Shown here piece after piece: positions 61,619 through 61,740 of a stretch of 64,000 nt of DNA. Numbering within the stretch: the stretch's first letter is position 1; each line of letters opens with the position of its first letter. The notes under the pieces are model-generated. The model was not told where the DNA came from, did not search any database, and worked only from the letters and a program-made list of their open reading frames with translations. This stretch comes from Gemmatimonas sp. (lineage in GTDB: Bacteria; Gemmatimonadota; Gemmatimonadetes; Gemmatimonadales; Gemmatimonadaceae): positions 310,001 to 374,000 of the forward strand of contig NZ_JAPZSK010000002.1 in the NCBI RefSeq assembly GCF_027531815.1, given 5' to 3'. Both the position numbers and the translations under genes were made by a program.

Positions 61619-61642
61619 GGCACTCTCCCAGGGAGTAGTGCC
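61619..61642 (-). promoter_or_regulatory. Hairpin over the metY ribosome site
   Basis: On the minus strand GGCACT ... AGTGCC encloses CTCCC-T-GGGAG, which hides the GGGAG Shine-Dalgarno sequence ten bases before the metY ATG. Translation could depend on opening it. Confidence 0.5.
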
Positions 61643-61657
61643 GCCAGAGAACACGAC

Positions 61658-61684
61658 GCGCCCGGACGGAGGGCCGCCGGGCGC
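61658..61684 (-). terminator. GC-rich hairpin after the SAM-II aptamer
   Basis: An 8-bp perfect stem (GCGCCCGG with CCGGGCGC) starts four bases after the aptamer. GTCGTGTTCT follows on the minus strand, without a strong T-run. It could be an attenuator driven by the riboswitch. Confidence 0.45.
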
Positions 61685-61687
61685 ACT

Positions 61688-61740
61688 CGCTGTTTAGCTC
61701 CTTGTTTAGCGTGGCGGCAATCGGCGGCAAATCACCACGG
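61688..61740 (-). ncRNA. SAM-II riboswitch
   Basis: On the minus strand the leader contains, in order, CGTGG, TGATTTG, a loop of about 13 bases, CCACG, then CTAAACAAG and GCTAAA. CGTGG pairs with CCACG to form P1, and the conserved GGTGATTTG and GCTAAA elements match the SAM-II class known upstream of met genes in Alphaproteobacteria. Binding of S-adenosylmethionine would reduce metY-metX-hom expression. Unlike classical SAM-II, the ribosome site is about 60 bases further downstream. Assigned from conserved sequence and gene context; not run through Rfam. Confidence 0.8.

Follow-up and report, generated by a model that had tools for sequence, protein, structure and literature searches.

The element located before metY in the window (the whole stretch of 64,000 nucleotides that was analysed, from a Gemmatimonas-type bacterium of soil and water) works like a SAM-II OFF switch and, on the sequence tests available, is a member of that family; it is the output part alone that represents a variant. 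The best explanation for this arrangement, to which we give a probability of about 0.5, is that metY-metX-hom is under a SAM-II OFF switch whose output is composite: translation would be controlled and transcription would be terminated at most in part. When the readings are ranked, translation control with partial termination at most is the most likely one, followed by control of both steps in series and then by plain attenuation.

The Rfam covariance search gave a match to RF00521 (SAM-II) at window positions 61748-61673 (-), with 45 bits against a cut-off of 36 and an E-value of 6.7e-7 (scope: 64 kb, all Rfam families), covering the full model (positions 1-79), and no SAM-II match other than this copy in the metY leader reached E <= 0.001 anywhere in the genome. 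The SAM-II identity that had been proposed in a first-pass annotation from the P1 stem, GGTGATTTG and GCTAAA, all of which are present together with UUGC, was thus confirmed by the covariance search that the same annotation had suggested. SAM-V gave no match at the curated threshold in the Rfam search of the window, and this identity was dropped on that ground. The parts of the aptamer are as follows:

61673..61748, minus strand: SAM-II aptamer, from the Rfam RF00521 match
61710..61739, minus strand: P1 stem, CGUGG 61739-61735 with CCACG 61714-61710, from the Rfam alignment and the sequence
61688..61727, minus strand: P2 pseudoknot, UUGC 61720-61717 with GC(U)AA 61698-61694, read by eye on the SAM-II fold
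61740..61754, minus strand: small hairpin GCACC-AUUCC-GGUGC just 5' of P1, from the sequence

In the Rfam alignment, the conserved SAM-II core, consisting of GAUUUG, UUGC, UAAACAAG and GCUAAA in addition to P1, is intact in the window. GAUUUG and two copies of GCCGCC (61728-61723 and 61718-61713) are located between the P1 strands, and partial pairing of 61727-61722 with 61692-61688 extends P2 by four more pairs with two mismatches, as read by eye; the nested Rfam model holds P1 only. Small hairpins ahead of P1, differing in sequence, could also be read by eye in some relatives in the genus. We infer that the metY leader binds SAM and follows OFF logic. The genes located downstream are those of methionine/SAM synthesis expected for SAM-II, and their order agrees with the metY-metX-hom assignment of the first-pass annotation, with metY and hom above the cut-offs of their models and metX below its own:

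60322..61614, minus strand: metY, O-acetylhomoserine aminocarboxypropyltransferase (TIGR01326, 564 bits, cut-off 495), with its ATG at 61614 (-)
59291..60523, minus strand: metX, homoserine O-acetyltransferase (TIGR01392, E 9e-80), with the true start inside the frame
58305..59450, minus strand: hom, homoserine dehydrogenase (NF004976, 289 bits, cut-off 205), with the true start inside the frame
61761..61767, minus strand: ACAACAG, putative 5' end of the transcript, from the motif ACAAYNG

The transcript very probably begins upstream of the aptamer, because ACAAYNG stands before P1 in 146 of 204 SAM-II loci, mostly 10-20 nt ahead (7 in a control stretch), and is itself preceded by a sigma-70-like promoter (TTGACA-like and TAnnnT-like) in 81 of those 146 loci. 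The pattern scan recognised no sigma-70-like promoter in front of the ACAACAG copy of the window. Further upstream on the same strand is ackA, encoding acetate kinase, which is followed at 61846-61810 by a strong inverted repeat, GACGGCCCUCG...CGAGGGCCGUC, with similar repeats in many relatives in the genus; this repeat is probably the ackA terminator.

The output part of the leader, between the aptamer and metY, contains two hairpins:

61657..61685, minus strand: terminator-like GC-rich hairpin, from the sequence and the fold
61619..61642, minus strand: Shine-Dalgarno hairpin, with GGGAG 61629-61625 and the 3' arm AGUGCC 61624-61619, from the minimum-energy fold; conserved in the genus
61637..61645, minus strand: GGCGGCACU, a candidate capture site for the aptamer strand that also forms the 5' arm of the Shine-Dalgarno hairpin, unchanged in 25 of 25 leaders of the genus

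In the 5' to 3' direction, GGCGGCACU is followed by the inner part ACUCCCUGGGAG, the arm AGUGCC and the ATG. The Shine-Dalgarno sequence GGGAG is located 64 nt past the end of GCTAAA (61693), close to the 60 nt or so that had been noted before, and it is enclosed in a stable hairpin of its own (61642-61619), as is expected of a translational riboswitch. The GC-rich hairpin in between, which had also been recognised correctly, has eight base pairs, all GC (61684-61658), a closing U-G pair and the loop CGGCCCUCCGU, and it holds GGCGGC at 61678-61673 (-). Its position between P2 and the gene (61685-61657) is that of the intrinsic terminator in SAM-II platforms, but the tail that follows directly from 61656, UCGUGUUCUCU, has a score of 1.6 and lacks the U tract of a terminator; the pattern scan listed no terminator on the minus strand here. 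The weak tail is shared by the metY leaders of the genus (mean score 1.74, compared with roughly 3 or higher for most other classes of gene), and L035 has a strong one (UUUUU, 3.7) together with the Shine-Dalgarno hairpin. When 25 genus leaders were aligned, a comparison that had been recommended with the first reading of the sequence, the Shine-Dalgarno hairpin was found in 25 of 25 and the GC-rich hairpin in 24 of 25, having been lost in L033, which retains the Shine-Dalgarno hairpin with GGCGGC. Because they recur in the genus, both hairpins are more than chance.

The first-pass annotation regarded this layout as unusual for SAM-II, on the premise that the Shine-Dalgarno sequence of known SAM-II RNAs lies within or beside the aptamer. 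However, Corbino et al. described many SAM-II RNAs in which P2 is separated from the gene by a putative intrinsic terminator (PMC1273637), Barrick and Breaker found regulatory terminators to be the commonest SAM-II association (PMC2258182), and in the SAM-V structure paper most SAM-II riboswitches are taken to be transcriptional and the translational metX example is called rare (PMC6061858). A terminator between aptamer and gene is therefore ordinary, and it is the rule in the phylum. The earlier proposal of attenuation, translation blocking or both is supported, and so is its OFF-switch context, while the claim of novelty from which it started was wrong. What does look special had been missed, namely the weak tail of the metY terminator and the fact that the 5' arm has conserved complementarity to the aptamer strand. 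The weak terminator tail and an arm GGCGGCACU complementary to the GCCGCC strand of the aptamer are specific to Gemmatimonas and one sister genus.

In Sinorhizobium meliloti, two SAM-II riboswitches have been described, one before metZ with predicted termination and one before metA, whose start codon is far away (PMC9373788). The metZ leader resembles that of the window in having the aptamer before a methionine-synthesis gene and then a terminator, which is expected to fold when SAM is bound, but its output is a typical Rho-independent terminator, whereas the window has a weak tail and a second hairpin that hides the Shine-Dalgarno sequence. The metA leader likewise has the order aptamer, terminator and start codon further on, but its Shine-Dalgarno sequence is part of the riboswitch and acts over a distance of 74 nt, unlike that of the window, which adjoins the ATG in its own hairpin (PMC9373788). 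The Sargasso Sea metX SAM-II (2QWY; PMC5352136, PMC6061858) shares the aptamer core, but its Shine-Dalgarno sequence is part of the pseudoknot and not 64 nt downstream. The Pelagibacter metY SAM-V (PMC6061858) has a related pseudoknot fold and regulates metY translation, in contrast to the window, which has no SAM-V match and no Shine-Dalgarno sequence next to the aptamer. Finally, the Bacillus thuringiensis Bc1 c-di-GMP riboswitch (PMC11218506) also combines a long expression platform with dual regulation, but with another ligand and aptamer and two typical terminators.

In the mechanism that we propose, the aptamer strand GGUGAUUUGCCGCC...UUGCCGCC would be free without SAM, and the newly made 5' arm GGCGGCACU would pair with it while the GC-rich hairpin is looped out. 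With the 5' arm captured, the Shine-Dalgarno arm would be open on emergence and metY would be translated. With SAM, the aptamer strand would be locked in P1 and P2, and the 5' arm would pair with the Shine-Dalgarno arm and block translation. The GC-rich hairpin would share its evolutionary origin with the regulatory terminators at the same position elsewhere in the phylum, and with its weak U tract it would cause at most partial termination. Capture of the 5' arm, and with it the switch, its direction and its kinetic nature, is suggested by four lines of evidence: complementarity, invariance, the folding of partial transcripts and the version of the leader found in the sister genus.

Although the GGC at the start of GGCGGCACU is left unpaired by the Shine-Dalgarno hairpin, it is invariant, while the adjacent linker and loop columns vary. 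These three bases are complementary to the aptamer strand with its two GCCGCC copies. Downstream GGCGGC was found in 23 of the 23 distinct genus leaders used for hexamer counts, compared with 0.24 in shuffles (maximum 3), and other hexamers of like composition occur in at most 3 of the 23. Inspection of the matches showed that, within the family, GGCGGCA follows the aptamer at this spacing in the Gemmatimonas-type leaders and in one sister genus only, the remaining GGCGGCA-pattern matches in the family being without the aptamer. Two points have to be set against this evidence: the G+C-rich background eases complementarity between GGCGGC and GCCGCC, and the genus leaders are related and their pairing is nearly constant, so that there is little covariation within the genus. 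A general second GGCGGC across all SAM-II leaders was also considered and is unsupported (10 of 40 outside the genus, compared with 3.3 in shuffles).

Folding predictions agree with the proposed capture in part. For a partial transcript ending just past the 5' arm, the predicted probability of pairing between arm and aptamer is 0.98-1.00 in 25 of 25 species. In four tested leaders this pairing beats shuffles, with 8-20 of 200 shuffles being as good, a control that is weak for any single sequence (about 5%, and 10% in L055), and an earlier duplex-versus-shuffle run on nine leaders was only suggestive (10-55 of 500 shuffles as good). When the arm is captured, the predicted openness of the Shine-Dalgarno sequence in the isolated 3' part of the window leader rises from 0.17 to 0.51. 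In the full-length fold of the window, the captured form (-55.8 kcal/mol) is within 2 kcal/mol of the minimum (-57.7), and it is itself the minimum-energy fold in the relatives L033, L041, L052 and L055. At equilibrium, however, the full-length RNA of the window is predicted to keep the site closed with or without a SAM-like constraint (openness 0.02 and 0.01), and a thermodynamic switch at equilibrium is therefore unsupported for the window. An alternative pairing between hairpin and aptamer is supported by the invariant complementarity and by partial-transcript folds, and the equilibrium fold of the window does not show it. Because the site stays closed at equilibrium, capture must act co-transcriptionally or with help from the ribosome; this is the weakest point of the proposal.

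The leaders of the sister genus provide a second version. In its four species, the aptamer and GGGCGGCACUC are kept, and the output has four segments, in which segment 1 (GGCACUC...) pairs with segment 2, segment 3 (GCGCACUC...) with the Shine-Dalgarno arm, and an alternative helix of nine pairs is possible between segments 2 and 3. A change on both sides (GAC/GUC in L179, GGC/GCC in L202) preserves the 2:3 pairing. With segment 1 captured, segments 2 and 3 would be able to pair, which would free the Shine-Dalgarno sequence, and the predicted openness rises from 0.08 to 0.78 in L207, from 0.17 to 0.48 in L202 and from 0.18 to 0.34 in L179. In L251, capture hardly frees the site (0.17 to 0.20, predicted), which counts against the model. 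In our view, the best argument for capture is that there are two different wirings, neither of which would make sense unless the arm after GGGCGGC were captured in the absence of SAM.

A reading that overlaps with this explanation, and that we hold only tentatively, places two checkpoints in series, so that the aptamer strand would be captured by the GGCGGC of the terminator and then by that of the Shine-Dalgarno hairpin, and SAM would act on transcription and then on translation, the share of the terminator being real and SAM-dependent. It is consistent with the presence of GGCGGC twice downstream and of GCCGCC twice in the aptamer, with the conservation of both downstream copies in the genus leaders (the terminator copy as GGCGG in 24 of 25, the second in 25 of 25), and with L035, which joins a strong tail to a Shine-Dalgarno hairpin, but the terminator of the window itself is weak with respect to its tail, to the pattern scan and to the energy of its antiterminator, which when forced reaches -46.9 compared with -57.7 kcal/mol, a cost of about 11 kcal/mol. 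If this doubtful wiring were real, the ligand-binding strand would be a shared anti-element for both decoys, and the balance would have moved from transcription to translation in the Gemmatimonas metY leaders; we found no description of such series wiring by a shared aptamer strand for SAM-II in the literature.

Ordinary attenuation is less likely still. According to this reading, SAM locks the aptamer and the hairpin at 61685-61657 terminates transcription, whereas without SAM that hairpin is kept from forming because GGCGGC, located in its 5' arm and loop, is paired with the aptamer GCCGCC, the Shine-Dalgarno hairpin being a fixed brake only. The hairpin does follow P2 directly, an arrangement shared with most SAM-II loci in the phylum, whose U tracts are strong, and SAM-II is mostly transcriptional according to the literature (PMC1273637, PMC2258182, PMC6061858). 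Furthermore, 80 distinct aptamer loops prefer their own terminator arm (-14.1 compared with -13.0 kcal/mol, 1 of 20,001 permutations), a preference that supports an antiterminator in the phylum at large, in a test that ignores relatedness. In the metY leaders of the genus, however, the weak tails, the cost of the antiterminator in the window, the loss of the hairpin in L033 and the negative pattern scan all argue against it, and the second invariant GGCGGC is left unexplained. Least probable is that the hairpins are unswitched, with the Shine-Dalgarno hairpin setting a low basal level and the GGCGGC repeats due to shared ancestry or G+C bias, since the nearly complete lack of SAM-dependent change in the equilibrium folding of the window favours it but the invariance of an otherwise unpaired GGC, the scarcity of hexamers of like composition and the design in the sister genus speak against it.

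SAM-II switches are mainly known from proteobacteria. In Gemmatimonadota they were found in 202 of 298 genomes, and more than 200 distinct loci were collected, mainly before metH, metF, metY-like, metX and hom genes; among the papers searched, we found none naming SAM-II together with Gemmatimonas or Gemmatimonadetes. In most of these loci a GC hairpin with a U-rich tail, a U-tailed terminator, directly follows P2, at the position of the GC-rich hairpin of the window, and there are examples in which the aptamer loop and the terminator arm change together (GCCGCC/GGCGGC, CGAGGC/GCCUCG). In a few metH loci the start codon is located beside the aptamer instead. The phylum thus shows one aptamer joined to varied outputs, including direct Shine-Dalgarno overlap in some metH loci, terminators, Shine-Dalgarno hairpins and, in relatives, leader peptides. 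If the 5' arm is indeed captured, the metY leaders would be a clean case of a platform that moved from transcription to translation while the sensor strand was kept. The exact aptamer loop of the window occurs in the genome collection only in Gemmatimonadota by record titles, many of them named Gemmatimonas, with one exception labelled Kuenenia. This record, L275 (contig CALQGY020000003.1, labelled Candidatus Kuenenia), has a Gemmatimonas-type aptamer and is probably misnamed.

Several loci in relatives differ from the window in their output or in the gene that follows. In L017, L026, L086, L088, L097, L131, L132, L134, L147, L151, L186, L200, L204, L209, L212 and L217, a short frame rich in Met (or Met/Cys), for example MMMVHAPTMMMMMMRMTG, follows the SAM-II terminator and precedes a second U-tailed terminator and the gene; L193 and L177 have this design as well. 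In many of those 16 loci, the pairing between the 5' arm of the second terminator and a strand just past the Met/Cys codons is clearly better than in shuffles, and a strict Met test was passed by 11 of 206 loci compared with 1 of 217 on the reverse strand. From its sequence, the arrangement looks like a tandem of a SAM-II riboswitch and a leader-peptide attenuator for methionine (or cysteine), a combination for which we found no describing paper. A leader peptide was rejected for the window, which has no Met-rich short frame between the aptamer and metY, and the design is limited to relatives.

Among the genus relatives, L036 (G298) appears to have lost metY, with a seven-codon remnant frame after the riboswitch and metX next, and in the metZ-like leader L064 (G019) the terminator lacks GGCGGC, with the U tract retained, and may act regardless of SAM. 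In L002, L016, L020 and L075, SAM-II and a terminator are located before panB, encoding ketopantoate hydroxymethyltransferase (Pfam PF02548 for L016), which lies outside the usual methionine set. In L056, L057, L062, L063, L065 and L067-L072, they are located before an uncharacterised ATP-grasp-like gene with weak Pfam matches (LysX_preATP_grasp, CPSase_L_D2), an association that is recurrent in the genus. In addition, variant SAM-II-like aptamers, with a different P1 and loop and an extended core, are located upstream of an AAA/MoxR-like ATPase gene (Pfam AAA_5 match) in L051, L058, L059, L060 and L114, with a possible hairpin hiding the Shine-Dalgarno sequence.
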